DNA of 35,518 nucleotides. It comes from Venenivibrio stagnispumantis (GTDB taxonomy: Bacteria; Aquificota; Aquificia; Aquificales; Hydrogenothermaceae). This document shows, piece after piece, positions 2,113 to 35,364 of the stretch. Position numbers and translations under genes: made by a program. The stretch covers positions 1 through 35,518 of the forward strand of contig NZ_FXTX01000018.1 in NCBI RefSeq assembly GCF_900182795.1, written 5' to 3'. The number at the start of each line of letters is the position of its first letter. Within the stretch, counting starts at the first letter, position 1. A model generated the notes under the pieces. The model did not search any database. It was not told the origin of the DNA and was given only the letters and a program-made list of their open reading frames with translations.

Positions 2113-4071
2113 CTAAATCTTAATAATATTTCTGCTTTTGATAAGTTCTACAATATCAAGAATTAAAACTACTTTTCCATCTCCCGTTATTGTTGCTCCG
2201 GATATTCCTTTAATATCTCCGAATATTTTACCAAGTGGTTTTATAACTATTTCTTCATCTCCGAATAAATCTTCTACCGTAAATGCAATTCTTTGATTTC
2301 CGAGGATACAAACAATAACATAACCTACTTTACTTTTTTGAAGTTTAAGGATTTCCGAAAGGTCAAGTAAAGGTAATGTTTTTTCCCTTAGTAAAAGCAC
2401 ATTTCTGCCTGATAGATGTTTTATCTCTGCATTATCTGCAGATACTATCTCATTTACAAGGAATATAGGAATTGCAAATTTTTTACCACTAATAGATACA
2501 ATTAATGACCTTATTATTCCTACGGTTAGAGGGAATGCTATACTTATTTTTGTTCCCCTTCCTTTTTCTGACCATATATCTATCGTTCCTCTAAAATTGA
2601 GAACAGTTGTCATAACAACATCCATTCCTACTCCACGACCGGATATCTGGGATACCTGCTCTGCAGTAGAAAATCCGGGAGTAAATATGAGGGATACTAT
2701 TTCTTTTTCGGTCATTTTTTCAAGCTGGTCTTTTGTTATCAATCCTTTTTCTATTGCTTTTCTGGCTACTTTGTCAGGGTCTATACCTCTTCCATCATCT
2801 TCTATCTCTATATATACCCTATCTCCTTGATAGTATGCCCTTAAAATAATTTTACCTACCGGTGGTTTTCCAAGTCTCTTTCTTTCTTCCGGTGGCTCTA
2901 TTCCGTGGTCTAAACTATTTCTGATAATATGCACTAAAGGCTCTTCAAGTTTTTCAAGTATAGATTTATCCATTTCTGTATCTTCACCCTGTATTATAAG
3001 CTCTACTTCCTTACCTACTATTTTGGATAAATCCCTTACTACCCTGCTGAATTTTTGGAATAATCTTTTTACCGGTTGCATTCTTGTTTTCATTACTGCA
3101 AGTTGTAAATCTCCCACAACCCTATCTATGGAAGATGTAGCAGCCTCTATATCTTCTACCACTTTATCCTGATATTTTGCAACCAACTCATTTACTGCTC
3201 TTAGCAATCTATTTCTATCAAGGACAAGTTCTCCTACCAAATTCATCAAATCTTCTATTTTCTTTATATCTATTCTTAGAACCTTTTCCTCTTCTTCTAC
3301 TACCTTTTTTGTTGCCGGTTTTTCTGCCTGCTTTTGAGTAGTTTCTACTGCTTGTTTTTGGGTGGTTTCTACCGGCTTTTCTTCTTTATTATTTCCGTTT
3401 TCAGACAGGTCTTTTCCCGCAATCTCTTCTTCCACCATCTCAAGCATCTTTTGTGCTGCTTCTTCTTCTATCTTCTGAATAATTTGAGGTGGTGGAGTAG
3501 TTTCTTCAGGATTTAGTAATCTATCTATAAAATCTATTATCTCCTGAGGTCTTTTATGAGGTGGTAATAACACAAGCTCTTCAAGGATTTCTTCTATCGG
3601 TTTTCCTTTTAGATGAGATAATCCGTATTTATCAAGCAAGGATTCAAGGGTTATCTCTTTATTTTCTTTATTTGTTTCTTCTTTTTTTCCTCCGAGAACC
3701 GATTCAAGTTCTTTTATTATTTCTTCATCCACATTTGCAAATCCTTCCGTTTCATATCCGTAAAGGGCATTTTTCAGACTATCTACTGCTTTTAAAAGAA
3801 TATCTCCTATATCTGATGTAAATCTTATTTTTCCTTCTTTTATCTTGCCAAGTAAATCTTCTGCTTTATGGGCTACTTCTACTATTGCTGTTAGACCCAA
3901 GAACCCTGCACCACCTTTTAATGTATGCATACTTCTAAATGCAGAATTTATAAGTTCCTGATTTTCAGGGTCTTTTTCAAGCTGTAATAATGTATTTTCC
4001 AAATTCTCTAAATGTTCTTTTGCTTCTATCAAAAATTCTTCAAAAATCTCTCTCATATCTTCCGGTATCAT
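2113..4071 (-). CDS. cheA: CheA chemotaxis histidine kinase
   Basis: A 652-residue CheA. The N-terminal HPt domain has phospho-accepting H49 in RSMHTLKGGAGFLG. A poorly conserved region (about 135-265) includes a linker with VETTQKQA repeated twice in tandem. A dimerisation helix pair starts near 265 (IKKIEDLMNLVGELV). The ATPase has the N box (HIIRNSLDHGIEPP), G1 (IEDDGRGI) and G2 (GRGVGMDVV). A C-terminal CheW-like domain runs from about 510. The start follows an AGGGGGC Shine-Dalgarno. It phosphorylates CheY and probably the CheV receiver. Unlike epsilonproteobacterial CheAY, no receiver is fused. Confidence 0.96.
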   Translation of the reverse strand: MIPEDMREIFEEFLIEAKEHLENLENTLLQLEKDPENQELINSAFRSMHTLKGGAGFLGLTAIVEVAHKAEDLLGKIKEGKIRFTSDIGDILLKAVDSLKNALYGYETEGFANVDEEIIKELESVLGGKKEETNKENKEITLESLLDKYGLSHLKGKPIEEILEELVLLPPHKRPQEIIDFIDRLLNPEETTPPPQIIQKIEEEAAQKMLEMVEEEIAGKDLSENGNNKEEKPVETTQKQAVETTQKQAEKPATKKVVEEEEKVLRIDIKKIEDLMNLVGELVLDRNRLLRAVNELVAKYQDKVVEDIEAATSSIDRVVGDLQLAVMKTRMQPVKRLFQKFSRVVRDLSKIVGKEVELIIQGEDTEMDKSILEKLEEPLVHIIRNSLDHGIEPPEERKRLGKPPVGKIILRAYYQGDRVYIEIEDDGRGIDPDKVARKAIEKGLITKDQLEKMTEKEIVSLIFTPGFSTAEQVSQISGRGVGMDVVMTTVLNFRGTIDIWSEKGRGTKISIAFPLTVGIIRSLIVSISGKKFAIPIFLVNEIVSADNAEIKHLSGRNVLLLREKTLPLLDLSEILKLQKSKVGYVIVCILGNQRIAFTVEDLFGDEEIVIKPLGKIFGDIKGISGATITGDGKVVLILDIVELIKSRNIIKI

Positions 4072-13437: not shown

Positions 13438-13677
13438 ATGAAAAAAACTAAAATCTTTAAAAGTGGAAATTCTTTAGCAGTGAGATTACCTAAAGGCTAT
13501 CAGATAGATACAGAAGAAGTTTATATTACAAAGCAAGATAATAAATTAGTTATATTCCCTGAAAAAGAAAAATGGGATGTTTTATTTGAAATTTTAGAAG
13601 AATTGGAAGAGAAAGAAATTGAAAATTTCTTAAAAGATAGAAATCAACCAAAACCACAAGAAAGAGAATTATTTTAA
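13438..13677 (+). CDS. vapB: VapB-type antitoxin (AbrB/MazE fold)
   Basis: A 79-residue antitoxin. Residues 1-45 (TKIFKSGNSLAVRLPKGYQI, EEVYITKQDNKLVIFP) are the swapped-hairpin AbrB/MazE DNA-binding fold of VapB. The C-terminal half (about 46-79) is helical and charged, then disordered, suited to wrap the VapC active site. It has an AGGGG ribosome site, and its stop overlaps the vapC start as TAATG, the usual coupling. It should neutralise VapC and repress the operon. It is unrelated to the ribbon-helix-helix VapB-like protein in the cas operon. Confidence 0.92.
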   Translation: MKKTKIFKSGNSLAVRLPKGYQIDTEEVYITKQDNKLVIFPEKEKWDVLFEILEELEEKEIENFLKDRNQPKPQERELF

Positions 13678-14078
13678 TGATTTATATGCTTGATACAAAT
13701 ATTTGTAGCTTTATAATTAGGGAAAAACCATTATCTGTAAAAGAAAAACTTAAAATTGTAAGTAAAGATAATAGAGTTGTAATCTCAAGCATTGTAGCAT
13801 CGGAACTTTTATATGGTGCTTATAAAAAAGAAAGCCAAAAATTAATAACTACAATAAAAACATTTATAGATTTTTTTGAGGTTTTACCTTTTGATTTAAA
13901 TGCAGCTGAGGAATATGGAAAGTTGAGAGCTTATTTAGAAAAAACAGGAAATATTATTGGAGCTTATGACCTTCAAATAGCAGCTCATGCTTTATCCTTA
14001 AATGCTGTATTAGTTACAAACAATACAAAAGAATTTTCCAGAATCAAAAAATTAAAAATAGAAGATTGGACTACTTAA
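13677..14078 (+). CDS. vapC: VapC-type PIN-domain ribonuclease toxin
   Basis: A 133-residue PIN-domain RNase. The acidic metal-binding residues are visible: D6 in MLDTNICSF, the Glu in SSIVASELLYGAYK, the Asp in GAYDLQIAAHAL, and the NNTKEFSRI motif. VapC toxins cut tRNA or rRNA at specific sites when VapB is lost; the target cannot be predicted here. The protein is full length for the family and in frame, so the pair looks functional. CCGG, very common elsewhere in the window, is absent from vapB and vapC, which hints that the pair was acquired. Confidence 0.93.
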   Translation: MIYMLDTNICSFIIREKPLSVKEKLKIVSKDNRVVISSIVASELLYGAYKKESQKLITTIKTFIDFFEVLPFDLNAAEEYGKLRAYLEKTGNIIGAYDLQIAAHALSLNAVLVTNNTKEFSRIKKLKIEDWTT

Positions 14079-25774: not shown

Positions 25775-25964
25775 ATGGAAAAATTTATTATATACGCTGC
25801 ATTGTTTATAACATTTACAACTGCATTAGGTTCTGTTTTTTGCCGTTATATTTAAAAAATTTCCGGATTGGTGGCTTGATGTTAGCTTAGCATTTAGCGG
25901 TGGAATAATGCTTGTTGCAAGTTTTACCTCTCTTATTTTACCATCTATAAAAATTGGCAAGGTA
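25775..25964 (+). pseudogene. 5' remnant of a ZIP-family metal transporter gene, cut off by the CRISPR array
   Basis: Starting at ATG 25775 the sequence reads MEKFIIYAALFITFTTALGS, then hits a run of six T where the frame breaks to a stop. Removing one T gives VFAVIFKKFPDWWLDVSLAF, then SGGIMLVASFTSLILPSIKIG. This is the first two membrane segments of a ZIP (ZupT-like) zinc/iron transporter, whose SGGIMLxASFxSLxxPA pattern is distinctive. Reading stops where the first, degenerate CRISPR repeat begins (about 25965). The rest of the transporter is not found on the other side of the array. So the gene carries both a frameshift and a 3' deletion. Confidence 0.8.
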
Positions 25965-26648
25965 CCCACATAGTTCAGATAAAACTTGAAGTAGCTCACA
26001 AAGTTTTTAGTCCTGTATTAACTTTCTATCCCACATAGTTCAGATAAAACTGGAATACTATGAATTTAAATTTTTCGTAACTTTTGCTTTCTATCCCACA
26101 TAGTTCAGATAAAACAAGTTGATTTGTATTCTGACTCGGAATATGTAGTAAGCTTTCTATCCCACATAGTTCAGATAAAACCCCTTCTTACAAACCTTGA
26201 TTTAAAGCCACATTTCTAACTTTCTATCCCACATAGTTCAGATAAAACAAAATAGTCCGAGGTCGGACTAATTTGATATAAAAAGCTTTCTATCCCACAT
26301 AGTTCAGATAAAACAATTGGAAGTGGGATGATTATTCACGTGAAAACAGTCCTTTCTATCCCACATAGTTCAGATAAAACTCTCCAGTCTGACAATGACT
26401 GAAAAAACAAACATCTATCTTTCTATCCCACATAGTTCAGATAAAACTCTCCAGTCTGACAATGACTGAAAAAACAAACATCTATCTTTCTATCCCACAT
26501 AGTTCAGATAAAACTCTCCAGTCTGACAATGACTGAAAAAACAAACATCTATCTTTCTATCCCACATAGTTCAGATAAAACTCTCCAGTCTGACAATGAC
26601 TGAAAAAACAAACATCTATCTTTCTATCCCACATAGTTCAGATAAAAC
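25957..26648 (-). CRISPR. CRISPR array, 11 repeats, 10 spacers, subtype I-B type repeat
   Basis: The 29-base repeat, read in the cas direction, begins GTTTTATCTGAACTATGTGG and ends GATAGAAAG. Ten copies are identical (26022, 26087, 26153, 26220, 26286, 26352, 26419, 26486, 26553 and 26620 starts). The eleventh, at 25957-25985, keeps only 21 bases and marks the leader-distal end. Spacers are 36-38 bases. The leader and cas2 lie at the high-coordinate side, so the youngest spacers are at 26381-26619. Those four spacers are identical to one another. The spacer at 26249-26285 contains a perfect 18-base palindrome. I saw no match of any spacer elsewhere in the window. Confidence 0.98.
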
Positions 26649-26965: not shown

Positions 26966-27232
26966 TCATAAAAAATTGTCTATATGACCTTTTTCTATTC
27001 CTAAAACATTTTTTTCTAAATTCTTCGGATTTTCTACCTTATAAACATAAACACTATCTTCTTTTATTTCTATAACATTATTAACTTCTGCCATGCATTT
27101 TGAAAGTTTTCCCTCTGATATTTCACCTTCAAAAGTTGAAAGTTGCGTCCAATAAAGATATTTTCTTAAAATCTTTCTGACCTTATTTAACCTTTTATCA
27201 TCGGTTATATCATAAGTGATAATCACATACAT
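26966..27232 (-). CDS. cas2: Cas2 adaptation protein
   Basis: 88 residues from the ATG at 27232, preceded by GGTGG; the protein then begins MYVIITYDITDDKRLNKVRK, the standard Cas2 N terminus with the conserved Asp of the ferredoxin-like fold. It forms the Cas1-Cas2 integrase that inserts new spacers. It starts two bases after the cas1 stop and is the last cas gene before the leader. The length is normal. Confidence 0.96.
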   Translation of the reverse strand: MYVIITYDITDDKRLNKVRKILRKYLYWTQLSTFEGEISEGKLSKCMAEVNNVIEIKEDSVYVYKVENPKNLEKNVLGIEKGHIDNFL

Positions 27233-27234
27233 AT

Positions 27235-28230
27235 TTACCACCAAGCTTTAAATGGTTTATATTCTTCATCTCCTATAAGATGTTTTATTAGCTTGTAGCA
27301 TTCTAATCTTATTAAATATCCATAAGATACATTTCTCTTTAATTTTCTATGTTTTATTGTTTTTGATAATCTCTCTTCATAAGCCTTTAAAAATTTTTTT
27401 CTTCCTTCTTCATTTAGATAAACATAATTTAAATTCTCATCAAAATCTTGTTTTGTTATCTGTTTTGTATTAATTAGACCAAATATAATTGGGTCTATTA
27501 TAAATGTTTTAAAAATTTCCGATAAATCTAAGGACAAGGAAAATCTTTTTTCTTGTGGTGAGTGTAGATAGCTAATTGTAGGGTCAAGCTGTGTTCTATA
27601 AATTTCTGTCAAGACGGTGTTATACATAACAGAGTTTCCAAAGCTGATTAAGGCATTTATAGGGTTGGTTGGTGGCCTTTTTTCTCTTTTTTCCATAAAG
27701 AAATCATCATTTTTTATAATTTTATTGAAAAGTTGATAATATCTATCTCTTATGTTTCCTTCTATTGCCATTAATTCTTCCGGTATTTTTGTTTTAAAAA
27801 TTTTCGGTAAAAGTTCTTTTTCTATATCTTCATAATCTTTTGGATTTATATCATTTTTCCTTAAATTTCTTAAAATATGATGGACTGCTCCTTCTATAAA
27901 GCTTATTGCAAGATATTGTCTTTTTCCTTCATCTATATGGTGTTTTACCTGCTCAACTAATAAATATCCGGAAATATTTTTCTTTCTTGGCAAAAAACTT
28001 CCGGAATAAAATCCATAATAATTGTAAATATGAACCGGAATATCAAATTGAGAAAGATAATTTAAAGCTTTTGTATTAAAATCCACTTCGCCAAATATAT
28101 GTATAGAATCTATATCATTTATAGCAAGTGGTTTTTTTATTACTTCACCATCTTTTTCTGTTTCAAAATATATAGTATTTTCAGCTCTTTTTATTCTACC
28201 ATTTGAATTAATATAAAATCTTCTTGCCAT
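27235..28230 (-). CDS. cas1: Cas1 spacer integrase, I-B type
   Basis: A 331-residue Cas1b. The N-terminal beta domain runs to about 75 (RFYINSNGRIKRAENTIYF, VHIYNYYGFYSG). The catalytic helical domain has the metal-binding Glu in AIEGNIRDRYYQLF, the His in ISYLHSPQEKRFSL and the acidic residue in LDLSEIFKTFIIDP. The stop is TAA directly before the cas2 start. It catalyses spacer insertion with Cas2; Cas4 upstream would help choose protospacer ends. All active-site residues are present, so adaptation should be competent. Confidence 0.97.
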   Translation of the reverse strand: MARRFYINSNGRIKRAENTIYFETEKDGEVIKKPLAINDIDSIHIFGEVDFNTKALNYLSQFDIPVHIYNYYGFYSGSFLPRKKNISGYLLVEQVKHHIDEGKRQYLAISFIEGAVHHILRNLRKNDINPKDYEDIEKELLPKIFKTKIPEELMAIEGNIRDRYYQLFNKIIKNDDFFMEKREKRPPTNPINALISFGNSVMYNTVLTEIYRTQLDPTISYLHSPQEKRFSLSLDLSEIFKTFIIDPIIFGLINTKQITKQDFDENLNYVYLNEEGRKKFLKAYEERLSKTIKHRKLKRNVSYGYLIRLECYKLIKHLIGDEEYKPFKAWW

Positions 28231-28233
28231 ATT

Positions 28234-28746
28234 TCACCCGTAGCAAAATTCGTAATATGCACATTTTTTGCAATAAGGAGCATCTATAACAGTCGGTGGC
28301 TTATCTTTTTTCAAAATTTTATTTATTTCTGCCAAAATTTCTTCTATCTTTTTTTCATATTCCGGTGTTAGCTCTATATATTCTTTTTTCTTCTGCTTTG
28401 GATAATTTATTATGCCTTTCTTTTCTATACCAAGTCTTTTAAGATAATAAAGATAATATAAAATCTGCATTTTATCTGCTTCTTCCATTTTGTCCGAATA
28501 TTTCACTTCCCTTATATTAAGGTTATCTACTATATCAATAGAGATAAGATTATCTATTAAAATCTCCTTTGCATTTTCCCTTTTATAACTTTCTTCATGA
28601 AGCAAAATACCGAGTAAAACCTTATCAGATTTATCTTCCATAGAAATTTTCCTATCAAAAAGCCATAATTTCCTCTGACAAATAAAATAATAATTAACTT
28701 TTATTCCATTAACTTTAAGCTCTTCAAAATTTATCTCTTCCATCAT
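28234..28746 (-). CDS. cas4: Cas4 RecB-like nuclease
   Basis: A 170-residue Cas4. C23 in FICQRKLWLF and the C-terminal trio C159, C162 and C168 (CKKCAYYEFC) are the four ligands of the iron-sulphur cluster. The RecB-type nuclease core shows GILLHEESYKRE and the acidic/Lys motif in IREVKYSDKM. It trims and orients pre-spacers for Cas1-Cas2. It is spaced 3 bases from both cas3 and cas1. Confidence 0.94.
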   Translation of the reverse strand: MMEEINFEELKVNGIKVNYYFICQRKLWLFDRKISMEDKSDKVLLGILLHEESYKRENAKEILIDNLISIDIVDNLNIREVKYSDKMEEADKMQILYYLYYLKRLGIEKKGIINYPKQKKKEYIELTPEYEKKIEEILAEINKILKKDKPPTVIDAPYCKKCAYYEFCYG

Positions 28747-28749
28747 AGA

Positions 28750-31032
28750 TTATATAAAAATCTCCTCATCAAATTGATAATTACCTAAAATCTCTTTATC
28801 TATTCTAATACCAAGCTCATCATCATAAACAAAATATTTTGCAAGAAGATATATATCTAAATCCCTATCTAAAATTTCATAAGGATTTTTATCTTTTATT
28901 TTCTCATTTAAAACCCAATAAACCGGAATTGGAACTTTTAAATCATTTATCTGTCTTAAAATATCTATTCTTTTTAATCTTTTTTCTTCTTTATCCTGAA
29001 TATTTTTTAGCTCTTTATATTTATTTATTAAATCTTCAACTTTATCTTTGAATATACAAGGAATAGCTTCAAAGCTAAATGTATCTCTAAAAATAAGTTG
29101 TGTTTCTTTTTTAAATAAATAATCCCAATTGGAATTTAAAACCTTTTCAACTTCTTTCCATTTTTCAAAATATTCAGAATTTAATCTTTTTAGATTTTCT
29201 CTTGAATAAAGAATTTCAACAATTTTTCTTTTTTCTTTTGAAAGTAGATAACCTTCTTTATCCAAATATTGCTGTATTAATTTTATACTTTCATCTCTTA
29301 AAACTTTTTCATATATATCTTTTTTTTCATCAACTTCTGAAAGTATATAAATATTTGGTTCTCCGGTATAATCTTCTTTTCTGTGTCTCCATATTCTTCC
29401 CATTCTTTGAATTAGACTATCTGCCGGTGCAACTTCTGTAAATAAAATATCAAAATCTATATCAAGTGAAGCCTCTACAAGCTGTGTTGATACCCAGATT
29501 TTTCCTTTGGCTGTCTGATAATCATTTTTTATTTGTTCCTCTTTTTTTCTTCTTGCTTCCCATATAAACCGGCTATGAAGAAGATTTTTATCTTTATAAT
29601 CAAGATTTTTATATATTTCCTGTGCTGTGCTTACCGTATTTGTCAAAACAAGAACATTTTTATTATTTTTTGCTTTTTCTACAATAATATCTAAAATATC
29701 AAAAATATTTTTTTGTAAGATTTCTATTTTATGCCTTTTTGTATTATCTATTGTTAATGGGTCATCTGTTTTTATTTCAAATCCGAGTTTTTCAAGCTCT
29801 TCTTTTATTATCTGTGGAAGTGTAGCCGTTATTATGAGATATTTTGCTCCGAGTTTTGTTGTTTCTTCTATCTGCTTTAAAATCGGAACTATTTGAGATG
29901 GGTCAAAACCTTGAATTTCATCAATTACTATATCAGAATAAGATAAAGTGGCATATATTTTTTCATAAGTTGGATATTTAAAAACTGCTGTAAAAAGCTG
30001 GTCAGCAGTAGATATTGTAATAGGTTTTGATAAATTTTTAGTATTATCATAATCTCTAAGGATTGTAAAATCTTCTGTATCTTTATTGGCAAAAATATAA
30101 AATAAACTGGTTGAATGTAAAAGTCCTACTTTTTCTTTACCAAATATCTGTTTCATTGTCTCAAACATTGCATTTGTAGATGTTCTATTTGGTAATACAT
30201 AAAACATTTTTCTTTTGCTCCATAATGTAGCAAGTCCTGTTTTACCAAGTCCGGTATCTGCTACTAAAACGAGATTCTCTCTATCTTTAAATTTTTTCTG
30301 AAAATCTCTTAAATTTCTCGGTTTATTATTTTTTTCAAGATAATTTAAAAATAAATCTTCCCTATTTTCTTTTATAGGCTCTTCTTCTATTATCAAATCT
30401 TCTCCGGAAGCTGAATGGTCTATCCTAATAAGTAATCCGGATATTTTTATAACTGATTTTACAAAATTATCATTATTTTTCAATTTATCATTTAATTTTT
30501 TTATATCTCCTATGTTATCAATAATATATTCAAAACGTTTTTTATAAAAATTGGCTGTTTGTGGAGTTAAACTATTTATTCCTATATGGGAGAAAAAATT
30601 GGAGATATTTTTTCCTATTTCATCAATTAAAAGTTTTATACCAACATTATTTAAATATTCTCTACCTCTGGCGTGGTGGTTTATTATGGAGTATATGATT
30701 ATAGATAGCTCTTGAAGGTTAAATTTATCTTTAAGATTTTCAAGGAATAATGGAGATAGATATTGGTGGGGTATTTTATCATCTTTTTCTTTGCTACATT
30801 TAACGGGTTTTAATTTTGGATTTGCAGGAAGTTTGCACTGAAAAAGTTTATTTAATTTTCCATAATCATGATACTCAATAGCTACTTTCAAAAGCTCTTT
30901 CTCTTTTTCTGTCAAAACTTCCGGATAATGATTAATAAAAATATTAAATTGTTTAAATAAATCATCTATATGCTCTCTTATAGTAGTTCCATCAGATTTA
31001 GCAAGATGTGTTTTTAAGTGGTTATTTAACAA
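28750..31032 (-). CDS. cas3: Cas3 HD nuclease-helicase
   Basis: A 760-residue fused Cas3. The N-terminal HD nuclease has IREHIDDLF, EYHDYGKLNKLFQ (the HD pair), IPHQYLSPLF and IINHHARGREY. The helicase has Walker A VADTGLGKTGLA, a DEIQGFD box in place of DEVH, ITATLPQII, and motifs V/VI VEASLDIDFDILFTE and QRMGRIWRHR. It unwinds and degrades DNA bound by Cascade. All nuclease and helicase residues I can check are intact. It ends 4 bases before cas4. Confidence 0.96.
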   Translation of the reverse strand: MLNNHLKTHLAKSDGTTIREHIDDLFKQFNIFINHYPEVLTEKEKELLKVAIEYHDYGKLNKLFQCKLPANPKLKPVKCSKEKDDKIPHQYLSPLFLENLKDKFNLQELSIIIYSIINHHARGREYLNNVGIKLLIDEIGKNISNFFSHIGINSLTPQTANFYKKRFEYIIDNIGDIKKLNDKLKNNDNFVKSVIKISGLLIRIDHSASGEDLIIEEEPIKENREDLFLNYLEKNNKPRNLRDFQKKFKDRENLVLVADTGLGKTGLATLWSKRKMFYVLPNRTSTNAMFETMKQIFGKEKVGLLHSTSLFYIFANKDTEDFTILRDYDNTKNLSKPITISTADQLFTAVFKYPTYEKIYATLSYSDIVIDEIQGFDPSQIVPILKQIEETTKLGAKYLIITATLPQIIKEELEKLGFEIKTDDPLTIDNTKRHKIEILQKNIFDILDIIVEKAKNNKNVLVLTNTVSTAQEIYKNLDYKDKNLLHSRFIWEARRKKEEQIKNDYQTAKGKIWVSTQLVEASLDIDFDILFTEVAPADSLIQRMGRIWRHRKEDYTGEPNIYILSEVDEKKDIYEKVLRDESIKLIQQYLDKEGYLLSKEKRKIVEILYSRENLKRLNSEYFEKWKEVEKVLNSNWDYLFKKETQLIFRDTFSFEAIPCIFKDKVEDLINKYKELKNIQDKEEKRLKRIDILRQINDLKVPIPVYWVLNEKIKDKNPYEILDRDLDIYLLAKYFVYDDELGIRIDKEILGNYQFDEEIFI

Positions 31033-31045
31033 TTTTTCTACCTCT

Positions 31046-31684
31046 TTAAATATAACTGATTATATATTTACCATCAAAGATATTTGTATATTTTGCTCCG
31101 GTTTCTGCTCTCGTATAAATTAAATTAACAGGTTTATAATCAATTATCTTTTTATTTTCATCAACGATGGTATCAAGAGCCATACTAAAAATACTTCCTT
31201 CTTGACCTTGTGATTGCTCCCATTTTAAATAGATATTTGTTTCTTCCTCATAAATATCTTCATATTTATTAAATGGTAATTCTTCCAATCCTTCCTCAAT
31301 AGTGATATCTATTATTAAATCCTCTTGTCTTCCAAGTCTGAAAATTTTCGGAGAGTATTTTATAGCTTTTATAATCTTTTCTTCAAATGGAGATTTTATA
31401 TGAATAATCCATCTGCATTCGTGGAGTTTCTGGATTGGTATAATATCTCTTTCTGAAGAACCTTTACGAATTTTGATTAATCGCTCTTTTTCAATAGAAA
31501 TACTTTTATAACTACCTTGGATAGAAAGTTTTGTATTTTCAAAATTTATACTTTCATAATCTGTTATTGCCCTTAAAAAACCATAAATTGTAGATGGTGG
31601 TGGGAGTAGGTAGCTTAGATAAGGATTTCCCACCGATGGAATTCTAAAATGTGCTGTTTCCTGATATATTTCAAGTCTTATCAT
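31046..31684 (-). CDS. cas5: Cas5 Cascade subunit
   Basis: A 212-residue Cas5 of the I-B (Tneap) type. The N-terminal RAMP strand RLEIYQETAHFRIPSVGNPY, followed by the glycine-rich PPPSTIYGFLRAI, is characteristic, as is GAKYTNIFDGKYIISYI at the end. It caps the 5' handle of the crRNA in Cascade. It lies directly downstream of cas7, with only 2 bases between, and upstream of cas3. Confidence 0.92.
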   Translation of the reverse strand: MIRLEIYQETAHFRIPSVGNPYLSYLLPPPSTIYGFLRAITDYESINFENTKLSIQGSYKSISIEKERLIKIRKGSSERDIIPIQKLHECRWIIHIKSPFEEKIIKAIKYSPKIFRLGRQEDLIIDITIEEGLEELPFNKYEDIYEEETNIYLKWEQSQGQEGSIFSMALDTIVDENKKIIDYKPVNLIYTRAETGAKYTNIFDGKYIISYI

Positions 31685-31686
31685 TT

Positions 31687-32664
31687 TTAACTCTCTTTAA
31701 ATATTTCTTCTATAAGCTCATTTATAACCTGATTATAATTCATAAAATCTGCTGTTTTTATTATTTTTTCTTCGGAATTTGCAAACCTTTCAAGCAGTTG
31801 TGATAGTTCCTCTGTATCCAAATAACCACCTTCGGATAATTTTTCTTTTAAAAACTTTTTAATAATCATAAAATATTTTGGTGCTATATAATCAAGAGAA
31901 AAAGCACTGAAAAATGGAGTTAAATTTCTTTCGGAGCCTTCTATTCTTTTAGCAAGCTCTCCCATTCCTTCCAGTAGCTGTTTAATTCTTTTTTTTCTTT
32001 CTTCTTTTTTTAGCATTATTTTTGTTATTTTCTTATTTTTATCATAATCTATTGTTTCAATAATATTAAGCCAGTTTTTAATTTTCTCTTCTGATAGCTC
32101 TTTATCAAGACCTAAAACTTTATATATTTTCTTTATTTTTTCTTCTAAGTTATCATTTTCGCTGATTTTTGTGTCTATGGTAGATATTTCCTGAACTCCA
32201 ACTCTGTCAATTTCTATTCCAAAAGGCATAATATATATTCGGTAAAAATTTTCTTTATTTATAATGTTTGCTTCATTTTCTCCGTATAATTTGGAGATTG
32301 CCATATTTGTCATAAATTCCATATCTCCAAAATAATTATTAATTGATATTCCATTATCAACTAAAAAAGTTGCCGGTCTTTCATATTTTGGTTTTGCTAT
32401 CATTGTTCCGGCAAAATCAAATTCTTCGCTGTCTATGATTGTTCCGGTTCTTTGGACAACCCCACCTTCTTTTGTAACAAAAGGAATAGACCAACCTTTA
32501 TTTCCTTGCAATGCTGTCCATAAAGCTCTTTTGTAAGAAACCGGAGAAAAGAAAACTTTTATACCTTCCGGAGTGGATATTTTCTTAACTGTAGCTATAT
32601 TACCTAACCCATCTCCTCTATTTACAACTCCTGTTTCAATAACAAAAACACCTGTAAGCTTCAT
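31687..32664 (-). CDS. cas7: Cas7 (Cst2/DevR family) Cascade backbone
   Basis: A 325-residue Cas7 of the Cst2/DevR family: LTGVFVIETGVVNRGDGLGN, then SPVSYKRALWTALQGNKGWS, and a C-terminal region with TPFFSAFSLDYIAPKYFM. Several copies coat the crRNA spacer in the type I-B effector. It lies 16 bases downstream of the VapB-like gene and 2 bases upstream of cas5. The length is normal for the family. Confidence 0.93.
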   Translation of the reverse strand: MKLTGVFVIETGVVNRGDGLGNIATVKKISTPEGIKVFFSPVSYKRALWTALQGNKGWSIPFVTKEGGVVQRTGTIIDSEEFDFAGTMIAKPKYERPATFLVDNGISINNYFGDMEFMTNMAISKLYGENEANIINKENFYRIYIMPFGIEIDRVGVQEISTIDTKISENDNLEEKIKKIYKVLGLDKELSEEKIKNWLNIIETIDYDKNKKITKIMLKKEERKKRIKQLLEGMGELAKRIEGSERNLTPFFSAFSLDYIAPKYFMIIKKFLKEKLSEGGYLDTEELSQLLERFANSEEKIIKTADFMNYNQVINELIEEIFKES

Positions 32665-32680: not shown

Positions 32681-32959
32681 TTACATAAGTTCTTCTTTAT
32701 CCATCATTGGATAATGTTTTTTATTTAAAGCTCTTTCTCCTTTTCTCAAATTCCTTAAAAAATTTTCTACATCATCAGTTTGATAACTCCATATACCTGC
32801 CACTTCTTTTATAGCTTTTAAAAGAGTTTCCTTATTTTGGTCAATCTCTTTTCTTAGCTTTTCTCTAATAAGTTCTGAAATTGTTTTGCCCGTTTTCAAA
32901 CTTTCTTCTTTTAAATATTTATAAATTTCTTCATCTAAATATATCTGCGTTCTCTTCAT
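32681..32959 (-). CDS. VapB-type ribbon-helix-helix antitoxin-like protein inside the cas operon
   Basis: 92 residues from ATG 32959; GAGGTG lies seven bases upstream, so I reject the in-frame GTG at 32968 that overlaps this site. The N terminus MKRTQIYLDEEIYKYLKEES, then GKTISELIREKLRKEI, is a standard ribbon-helix-helix DNA-binding fold. The C-terminal IKEVAGIWSYQTDDVENFLRNLRKG matches the toxin-binding tail of VapB antitoxins. No VapC follows: the next gene is cas7. Such a protein is not part of a normal I-B operon. It could repress the cas promoter or restrain a VapC elsewhere. The spacing (27 bases after cas8, 16 before cas7) shows it is a cistron in the operon. Confidence 0.85.
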   Translation of the reverse strand: MKRTQIYLDEEIYKYLKEESLKTGKTISELIREKLRKEIDQNKETLLKAIKEVAGIWSYQTDDVENFLRNLRKGERALNKKHYPMMDKEELM

Positions 32960-32986
32960 AACTAACACCTCAAGTATTTATATACA

Positions 32987-34567
32987 TTACAAACTATTCT
33001 CTTTTACAGTTTTTTCATTTTCCTTCTCAACTTTCTCTTCCGGTTTTCTTGTCATTACTGAAAGAGCAATAGTTGTTGCAATATCTTTATAACTATCTTT
33101 TCTTATCATACTTAATAGATTGCTATCTATCGGGGCATCATAACTTATCATAACTCTTGTTAAAGTTTCCATAAACTGGTCAAATGTTCCCTTAGAAGCA
33201 TCTAAGAAAGAATTAGCAAGCGAAATAATCTTATTATTGAAAGTATTCCAATTTATATCTCCATCTTCCGATAAAGATGAATAAACTCTTCCTCTTAAAA
33301 ACTGTCCGTATTCCTTAAAGCTATCATACATATCCATACCCAAAGCCTCCTCTAAGATAAAATGCATTTTTAAAATATAAAGTAATACATCTATATAAAA
33401 CCCTTTTACCGGTGGATTTTTGACATTTTTTTGTCTGAAATTTTCGGACATTAATGCAAATTTTAAAAATTTTTGAACCAATATTATTAATTTTTGATTA
33501 TTCGCAATAGCATTTAATATTTCTTTTGAAAGATTTACAACCTCATATCCTTTTTTAGATTTTACATATCCAAAAAGGCTGTTTTTATAATTGGTATAAA
33601 GTTTTTCAAGCTCATTTTCCAATTTTATTAAATTTTTAATTGTTTTTTCTGTAAGAAAATAAAAATCCAACTTAGGATTTTGAGAGTCAAGATAAAATTC
33701 CAATATTTGTAGCTCTTTAATAGAACCATCTTTTTTTAGCTTTAATTTTTCATAATCAATAATTCTTTTTGTAATCTCTCCAATATCCGAAATCTTAAGC
33801 CCTTCATTTAGATTTTCTAAATCATTTAAATTTGTTCTATAAATCACAACAGCATTTAGCTCATTTCCCAAGAAGGTAAAAGATTGAGTAATAGCAAGAT
33901 TAGATACCAAGCAATAAGGACATATAAAGATAGACGGCTCGCCAAACCAAAAAGCATTAAATTGAGCAGGAGCAAAGAAAAATGTGTCTCTTGTTATTCT
34001 TTTCCCTTTATGTTGCTGACAAAAAGAGCAAGTTTTATCTTCTATATCTTTATACAATTTATTAATAGCTTTTTGTAAAGTATCCTCACCTCTAACATTC
34101 ATATCTGCTTGAAAATTTAAAAGAATATTATTTAATAAATTTACAGCTTTATTCCAAAGAATATCTTCTATATCTTTTTGTGAAAAACTTTTCTCCGTGA
34201 GATTTTCAGATAAAAATTTATAGATTGGTAAAGATAGATTTTTTATAACATCTTTTAAATTTTTCTTATTTTTTACAACTTCTTCAAGATTTAAATCTAT
34301 AAAAGAAACCGTTTTTTCTTTAAAAATTTTTTCAACTTTTTTATTATCATCTTTAAATAAAGTAGATGCTACTTTTTCTAAAAAATAATTTCCGGATTTT
34401 TGAGAGACTAACCTTAATATAATTAGCTCTAAAATCTCTTCCGGTTTTTTATCTATTTCTATATAAAAATCATCTGATTGATAAGGCTCTCCAAAGAAAT
34501 CTAATATTTTTTTTAATCCATATACTCCAAGGTCATATTGAAAATTACCGGTTAAATAATATCTCAT
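32987..34567 (-). CDS. cas8b: Cas8 (Cst1-type) large subunit of type I-B Cascade
   Basis: A 526-residue protein with the Cst1/Cas8b1 N terminus (MRYYLTGNFQYDLGVYGLKKILDFFGEPYQ within the first 30 residues). It has a zinc-finger-like pair, CSFCQQHKGKR (about 181) and CPYC (about 216), and a mostly helical C-terminal half. The C-terminal stretch about 480-515 (MISYDAPIDSNLLSMIRKDS) carries a small-subunit-like helical bundle. The large subunit recognises the PAM and supports Cas3 recruitment. Its ATG overlaps the cas6 stop as TAATG. It is divergent in sequence from better-known Cas8 types. Confidence 0.88.
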   Translation of the reverse strand: MRYYLTGNFQYDLGVYGLKKILDFFGEPYQSDDFYIEIDKKPEEILELIILRLVSQKSGNYFLEKVASTLFKDDNKKVEKIFKEKTVSFIDLNLEEVVKNKKNLKDVIKNLSLPIYKFLSENLTEKSFSQKDIEDILWNKAVNLLNNILLNFQADMNVRGEDTLQKAINKLYKDIEDKTCSFCQQHKGKRITRDTFFFAPAQFNAFWFGEPSIFICPYCLVSNLAITQSFTFLGNELNAVVIYRTNLNDLENLNEGLKISDIGEITKRIIDYEKLKLKKDGSIKELQILEFYLDSQNPKLDFYFLTEKTIKNLIKLENELEKLYTNYKNSLFGYVKSKKGYEVVNLSKEILNAIANNQKLIILVQKFLKFALMSENFRQKNVKNPPVKGFYIDVLLYILKMHFILEEALGMDMYDSFKEYGQFLRGRVYSSLSEDGDINWNTFNNKIISLANSFLDASKGTFDQFMETLTRVMISYDAPIDSNLLSMIRKDSYKDIATTIALSVMTRKPEEKVEKENEKTVKENSL

Positions 34568-35364
34568 TACCCAAGAACCTCCACCATACCAAAGCCTTGA
34601 CCGGTTCTATTGCCTATGCCGATTTTATATAAAATTTCTAAATCTTTCTGATGTCCAGTTAATCTGAATATTCCGGAGTTTGAAGTTAAATACATTATTG
34701 GCTTTCCGGTTTTTTCTCTAAAATCCTTTAATGTATGTTTTATAACCTGTTTCTCCATTTTGATAGGCTCAAATTTTAATGGTTTTTCTAAGCCTTTACC
34801 TTTTATATGTGGAGATTTTAAAATTTTATCTGTTATCTGATTTAGATGAAACTCAAAATCTTTATCTGAAAATAAAACCGGATTATCATTTTCATCTTCT
34901 ACTATTATTGGCGAATTTGTTTTAAATACTATATCCTCCGATTTTATAGGTCTTTCATTTAATGATATAACTTTTTCTATCTGCCATACTATTTTTTCTC
35001 CATTTATTAACATATTTTTATCAGAGCTAAAATCAAAATTTTTTAATCTTTTCAATCCATTAAAAACACTTATCAAAAATCTATAATCCAAAGCAGAAAT
35101 AAATAAAGAAAGATAACCTCCTTCTATATTAAAAACTGTGTCTTCTATGACAAAATTTTCATCTATTTGGATTTTGGCTTTTTCCGGTTTTTTCTCTTTT
35201 GGTAAAAGAAGATTAAAACTAAAAGGCTTTGTTATTTTACCATTATAAAGAAACTCTTTATAATCTTTATCTGCTTTTTTCAGAGCTTCTTTAAAAAGAG
35301 ATATTACCCTATGCCTATAAATAATTGGTATTTTGTTTGTTTTAATCAGAACTTTTATTCTCAT
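34567..35364 (-). CDS. cas6: Cas6 crRNA-processing endoribonuclease
   Basis: A 265-residue Cas6. Tandem RAMP folds with IPIIYRHRVISLFKEALKKA near the N terminus (the His there is a candidate catalytic residue) and the C-terminal glycine-rich loop GIGNRTGQGFGMVEVLG, the family hallmark. It cuts pre-crRNA within each repeat, leaving an 8-base handle; with this repeat the handle would be AUAGAAAG. GGTGG precedes the ATG. It is the first gene of the cas operon, which runs without gaps to cas2. Confidence 0.92.
   Translation of the reverse strand: MRIKVLIKTNKIPIIYRHRVISLFKEALKKADKDYKEFLYNGKITKPFSFNLLLPKEKKPEKAKIQIDENFVIEDTVFNIEGGYLSLFISALDYRFLISVFNGLKRLKNFDFSSDKNMLINGEKIVWQIEKVISLNERPIKSEDIVFKTNSPIIVEDENDNPVLFSDKDFEFHLNQITDKILKSPHIKGKGLEKPLKFEPIKMEKQVIKHTLKDFREKTGKPIMYLTSNSGIFRLTGHQKDLEILYKIGIGNRTGQGFGMVEVLG

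Follow-up and report, generated by a model that had tools for sequence, protein, structure and literature searches.

A vapB-vapC' fusion gene in a Venenivibrio type I-B cas operon: probable relict of a toxin-antitoxin module

The small gene between cas8 and cas7 of the type I-B cas operon studied here is probably the relict of a vapBC module that lost its toxin by deletion, most likely without a role in CRISPR. It lies in the window, meaning the whole stretch of DNA analysed: the 35,518 nucleotides of contig C18 in the 1.56 Mb draft genome of Venenivibrio stagnispumantis (99.9% complete, 41 contigs). An earlier note, made from this sequence, had described an orphan VapB antitoxin gene and offered two functions for it: repressor of the cas promoter, or antitoxin half of a guard for the operon.

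The fusion gene and its place in the cas operon

The contig ends in the cas operon, which is on the minus strand and reads cas6, cas8b, fusion ORF, cas7, cas5, cas3, cas4, cas1, cas2. Named relatives, Persephonella and other Hydrogenothermaceae, possess the same operon; a contig survey for such operons, run with narrow search patterns, reached eight loci.

34567..35364, minus strand: cas6, first gene of the operon (TIGR01877, E 1e-29)
32987..34567, minus strand: cas8b of the Cas_CXXC_CXXC type, upstream neighbour of the fusion ORF (family match)
32966..32971, minus strand: Shine-Dalgarno-like GAGGTG of the fusion ORF, 6 nt upstream of its ATG (sequence)
32681..32959, minus strand: vapB-vapC' fusion ORF, 92 aa (ATG start, Pfam match, alignment with relatives)
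32732..32959, minus strand: VapB-derived part, codons 1-76 (alignment with VapBs of relatives; AlphaFold2 helices)
32681..32731, minus strand: VapC-derived tail ALNKKHYPMMDKEELM, codons 77-92 and stop (match to vapC 3' end)
31687..32664, minus strand: cas7 (Cst2/DevR), downstream neighbour (TIGR02585, E 6e-29)
31046..31684, minus strand: cas5 (family match)
28750..31032, minus strand: cas3 (family match)
28234..28746, minus strand: cas4 (family match)
27235..28230, minus strand: cas1 (family match)
26966..27244, minus strand: cas2 (named by position and sequence, not by family search)
25957..26648, no strand assigned: CRISPR array of 11 repeats CTTTCTATCCCACATAGTTCAGATAAAAC, after cas2 (sequence)

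Elsewhere in the window, positions 13438-14078 on the plus strand hold an intact pair of a MazE-type antitoxin and a PIN toxin.

The fusion ORF follows cas8 after 28 nt and precedes cas7 by 17 nt on the same strand. Its match to RHH_1 (PF01402; 30.4 bits against a cut-off of 20.5, E 3e-7) shows that an N-terminal RHH domain is present, while VAPB_antitox matches only below Pfam's cut-off. No toxin gene was found downstream. An RHH gene of the VapB type inside the cas operon, with its own ribosome site and no accompanying toxin, is what the earlier note had described, and to this extent its description was correct. Since the ORF is open, has a ribosome site and is located within the operon, it is probably translated along with the cas genes.

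We found related RHH genes in 18 of the 101 related genomes searched. In at least eight Hydrogenothermaceae genomes, the same RHH gene is the vapB of an overlapping vapB-vapC pair, whose second gene encodes a PIN toxin. The close relatives are followed by an overlapping PIN-domain VapC gene, which identifies the RHH gene as vapB. Residues 1-76 of the ORF are 66-79% identical to the VapBs of close relatives, after which the homology ends, leaving out the last four of ~80 VapB residues. As judged by alignment, this part takes in the RHH DNA-binding domain and almost all of the C-terminal region expected to bind toxin; over residues 40-76 it aligns with VapBs that adjoin PIN toxins, and toxin binding is predicted from this homology. 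An AlphaFold2 model built from 12 sequences has helices at residues 10-23 and 27-79 and low confidence at residues 78-92, with the VapC-derived tail predicted to be disordered (pLDDT <50). Comparison of the fusion protein with solved structures returned weak RHH matches only.

The last 16 residues, ALNKKHYPMMDKEELM, match the C-terminus of VapC, which in relatives ends in FKLWTLNKKHYPMMNDKELI or similar. The tail DNA and the vapC 3' ends of relatives are identical over as many as 28 consecutive bases, the 28-nt run being with locus L012. Its ungapped scores against vapC 3' ends were 18-28, and the best was twice the best shuffle score (maximum 14; 300 shuffles per comparison). Relative to L012, ~326 bp are deleted in frame, and CTT at the junction may be a microhomology. 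What remains of vapC in the window is its last ~15 codons, fused to vapB, and no full vapC for a PIN toxin is adjacent. The conserved acidic residues of VapC fall in the deleted part. On this comparison vapB has survived not as an intact orphan gene but as part of a vapB-vapC' fusion. The VapC-binding tail assigned to it by the earlier note holds up to residue 76, where there is VapB homology, but not for the last 16 residues, which are the C-terminus of VapC itself. That the toxin was deleted from the cas8-cas7 spot was a point invisible to that note's reader.

We propose that a vapBC module entered the cas8-cas7 junction of the type I-B operon. Sequence comparison shows that an internal in-frame deletion of ~326 bp then took the end of vapB and all of vapC except its last ~15 codons, leaving 76 of the 80 VapB residues joined to a C-terminal stub of VapC. 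The resulting fusion ORF most likely plays no part in CRISPR immunity or its regulation. Its persistence may mean either that an in-frame ORF does no harm in a polycistron or that the deletion happened recently. Counted against the relict reading is that the exact fusion is carried by one genome only. An assembly artefact, with an intact vapC in the organism, might be suspected in a draft genome of 41 contigs, yet the junction lies well inside the 35.5 kb contig, the reading frame is open, no long repeat borders the junction, and the upstream operator is independently damaged. We therefore regard an artefact as extremely unlikely.

Operator and partner toxin

Repression of the cas operon by the RHH protein, as an autoregulator, would fit its intact RHH domain. 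Antitoxins of the RHH/VapB type repress their own operons, and the relatives have a conserved operator: the palindrome TAATGTATATATACATTA, or a form of it with one or two changes, is located upstream of vapB in nine of nine relatives. In the window, however, this operator is damaged.

32972..32989, minus strand: damaged VapB operator TAATGTATATAAATACTT; the left half, over the cas8 stop codon, is preserved and the right half changed

No intact copy (up to 3 mismatches) occurs in the window, and the 154 bp upstream of cas6 contain no operator; the contig ends there, and a more distant site beyond it is possible. The genome as a whole offered no convincing site either, the best being within the coding sequence of a UvrD-type helicase. 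The damaged operator and the lack of one upstream of cas6 make autoregulation at the cas promoter unlikely. With the toxin gone, the reason for autoregulation is gone too, and most sister operons are without the gene. Altogether, we consider it very unlikely that the protein represses the cas operon.

The guard proposed by the earlier note would work at a distance: loss of the cas operon would remove VapB and thereby free a VapC encoded elsewhere. Intact toxin-antitoxin pairs within other cas operons of the Hydrogenothermaceae make an addiction role of the ancestral module conceivable. Against such a guard in the present genome, however, stands the search for its toxin, which turned up nothing related to the cognate VapC, although the assembly is 99.9% complete. 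The best match (E 0.014) was a PIN toxin with a MazE-type antitoxin of its own. Seven of the eight PIN toxins adjoin a small gene in the antitoxin position, a candidate antitoxin, and the eighth is at a contig start. Moreover, the toxin is deleted at this very locus. With no VapC relative in the genome and a candidate antitoxin beside seven of the eight PIN toxins, there is no support for a guard that works through a distant VapC, and we give it almost no credence.

The earlier note had called such a guard a protein analogue of CreTA, the CRISPR-regulated toxin-antitoxin RNA guard. Both are toxin-antitoxin elements in a CRISPR-Cas locus, but the element in the window is a protein and not an RNA, with neither a degenerate repeat nor a toxin, and without a sign of Cascade dependence. 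At up to 10 mismatches, no repeat-like sequence was found at the cas8-cas7 slot, the nearest being ~1.2 kb off inside cas5, and a CreTA-like crRNA antitoxin is therefore not indicated there. Because the operator is damaged and absent from the cas promoter, and because there is no relative of the cognate VapC, neither autoregulator nor guard is supported. An attractive but mistaken candidate for a protein guard of CRISPR is thereby set aside.

The cas8-cas7 slot and the vapBC family in relatives

We compared the slot in 11 operons with this type of Cas7, including that of the window. The slot is empty in six (G001, G011, G003, G061, one of three in G017, and L046), so that VapB is not a required component, and VapB is not conserved at this position in other I-B loci. 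This and the lack of a partner VapC are the two outcomes that the earlier note had named as refuting its proposal. A complete MazE-MazF pair fills the slot in one operon (L048 1663-2228, contig G009:C73). The vapB-vapC' fusion is unique to the window among the 11, and a 70-aa chimeric antitoxin fills the slot in the remaining three operons (G023:C96 and two in G017).

L033 1272-1484: orphan chimera in the cas8-cas7 slot
L039 2562-2774, reverse strand: orphan chimera in the cas8-cas7 slot
L038 1-144: orphan chimera in the cas8-cas7 slot

The chimera resembles the RHH of VapB over its first 38 residues; over its last 38 it resembles the end of a Phd/YefM antitoxin that is paired with a RelE/YafQ-type toxin. 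No toxin was found beside it. Of three pairwise dN/dS values for the chimera, two are 0.09 and 0.18; the third, 0.42, comes from the closest and least informative pair. The chimeric orphan is thus apparently under purifying selection, which suggests that orphans in this slot can be useful and counts against the relict reading.

Modules of the same vapBC family also occur in other operons. They lie between hypD and hypE (hydrogenase maturation) in G039, G001, G027 and G023, and after secF in G022. This indicates that the module tends to enter operons in general, and that its presence in a cas operon is no link to CRISPR. The vapBC loci embedded between hypD and hypE are L010, L011, L012 and L014. 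vapC is frameshifted in G001; among these loci, the frameshift is in L011.

Of the alternatives to a relict, the best is that the orphan antitoxin, made from the cas operon, has been kept by selection as an anti-addiction protein that would neutralise the VapC of incoming plasmids, phages or other modules of its family. Chromosomal ccd is an established case of this principle (PMC2654758), and vapBC of this family is widespread in relatives. Selection would also fit the survival of 76 of 80 VapB residues and the chimeric orphan that apparently evolves under constraint in the same slot of G023 and G017. The dN/dS of the window's VapB part against relatives is 0.05-0.15, similar to that of intact vapBs among themselves. 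This shows no relaxed constraint, a point against the relict reading, and is consistent with either a recent deletion or continued selection. However, the low dN/dS of the window gene may predate the deletion, a stub of VapC has taken the place of the last four VapB residues and may affect binding, and the plasmid and phage collections searched contained no related VapB at E 1e-3. The same fusion was likewise not found in viral contigs. We regard anti-addiction as an unlikely explanation and favour a relict without a CRISPR role.

Toxin-antitoxin modules across the cas operons of the family

Toxin-antitoxin modules recur in the cas operons of the Hydrogenothermaceae, often as an antitoxin stripped of its toxin. 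The source genome itself provides another example in its second cas locus, on contig C3, where cas7 and cas5 flank an orphan MNT antitoxin whose HEPN toxin is deleted.

L081 (G000:C3) 3457-3750, minus strand: second cas locus of the source genome
L081 (G000:C3) 2766-3464, minus strand: second cas locus of the source genome

Here cas5 begins with the first codons of HEPN (ATG-TCT-AAA), joined to its own body (MSK-KTLIFDIWG). This HEPN-cas5 fusion was also found in G023 and G024 (loci L110 and L113), while G034 and G011 keep an intact HEPN gene. HEPN-MNT pairs are found in the cas operons of G011, G030 and G034. The interleaving of these loci in a cas5 tree suggests recurrent excision of HEPN at the same point. 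Together with the frameshifted vapC of G001, the HEPN loss in the second cas locus is a parallel to the window, in that a toxin was lost and its antitoxin kept. Orphan MNT antitoxins in cas slots have dN/dS values of 0.09-0.12, which would speak for anti-addiction, though a cas5 tree suggests that the toxin losses were separate, in which case part of the constraint predates them. In the cas5 tree, loci with and without HEPN are interleaved. The HEPN losses are therefore probably recurrent, and the MNT comparison is not a clean test of selection after toxin loss.

Several modules occupy other junctions. Intact Phd-RelE (YafQ-like) lies between cas5 and cas3 in G030, G034, G023 and G011, and between cas7 and cas5 in G002. 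These Phd-RelE pairs in I-B cas operons are at loci L105, L109, L110, L111 and L085. In G020:C1, a VapBC made up of a PIN toxin and a CcdA-like antitoxin is inserted between cas5 and cas3 (L108 11382-12030), and between cas4 and cas1 the same locus has a TumE toxin preceded by a small ORF (L108 6564-7140). A Fic/Doc toxin preceded by a small RHH-like ORF takes the cas4-cas1 position in G014 (L097 11560-12139).

Enrichment differs by gene family, measured against a genome-share expectation for which the cas span is somewhat underestimated. Only one of 143 PIN toxins in 41 genomes falls within a cas operon, matching the expectation and showing no general enrichment of PIN toxins. ParE-like toxins (4 of 41) are above expectation, with copies that are not independent, as are MNT genes (10 of ~172, counted by hand), with copies that share ancestry.

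A broader scenario is that toxin-antitoxin modules repeatedly settle in I-B cas junctions of the Hydrogenothermaceae as addiction locks that make losing the operon costly, after which the toxins are excised and the antitoxins, the window's among them, are kept by selection because they immunise against related toxins of invaders. We consider this scenario rather improbable at present. If true, the cas operon of the Hydrogenothermaceae would double as an antitoxin store.

Decay and anti-addiction of chromosomal toxin-antitoxin systems are established ideas (PMC2654758). Like the decaying ccd of that study, the window's gene belongs to a chromosomal system without addictive character, whose antitoxin could act in trans; it differs in being located within a cas operon, and its neutralisation in trans is putative. 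Compared with VapBC (RHH VapB plus PIN VapC), the VapB domain and upstream region are alike, but vapC is cut to a C-terminal stub on VapB, the operator is damaged, and the location is a cas operon. Makarova et al. (2012) stated that typical antitoxins seem not to be encoded in immunity loci (PMC3506569). Toxin-antitoxin pairs in type I cas loci, including Fic/Doc, Phd/YefM, MazE and others, appear in the portion of a 2013 survey drawn on here (PMC3936711). Unlike the pairs in that portion, the window keeps the antitoxin half only, and its sequence still records the deletion by which the toxin was lost. The Hydrogenothermaceae set of VapBC, MazEF, Phd-RelE, HEPN-MNT, Doc and TumE also exceeds the examples in that portion. 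Our literature search found no paper on toxin-antitoxin modules in Hydrogenothermaceae cas operons.

We read the window gene as the remnant of a module already known in kind, not as a new CRISPR guard or regulator, and it shows how such orphan antitoxins originate, by deletion of the toxin in place. The family-wide pattern is more interesting than the gene and merits a study of its own. Within one family it offers a natural series of empty slot, intact pair, lost toxin and chimeric antitoxin. With this series one can test whether toxin-antitoxin modules protect cas operons against loss or are passengers, and whether stranded antitoxins are selected.

Cargo of other kinds was also seen at cas junctions. 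L042 4415-6774 encodes DUF6236 and an MBL-fold protein, L047 4653-7279 a UvrD-like helicase and a 207-aa protein, and L044 and L045, between cas6 and cas8, a 311-aa protein with a weak match to the Card1 nuclease. In another family of the order, a 70-aa RHH gene precedes cas1 and overlaps its start (L024, G054:C214, 1369-1581).
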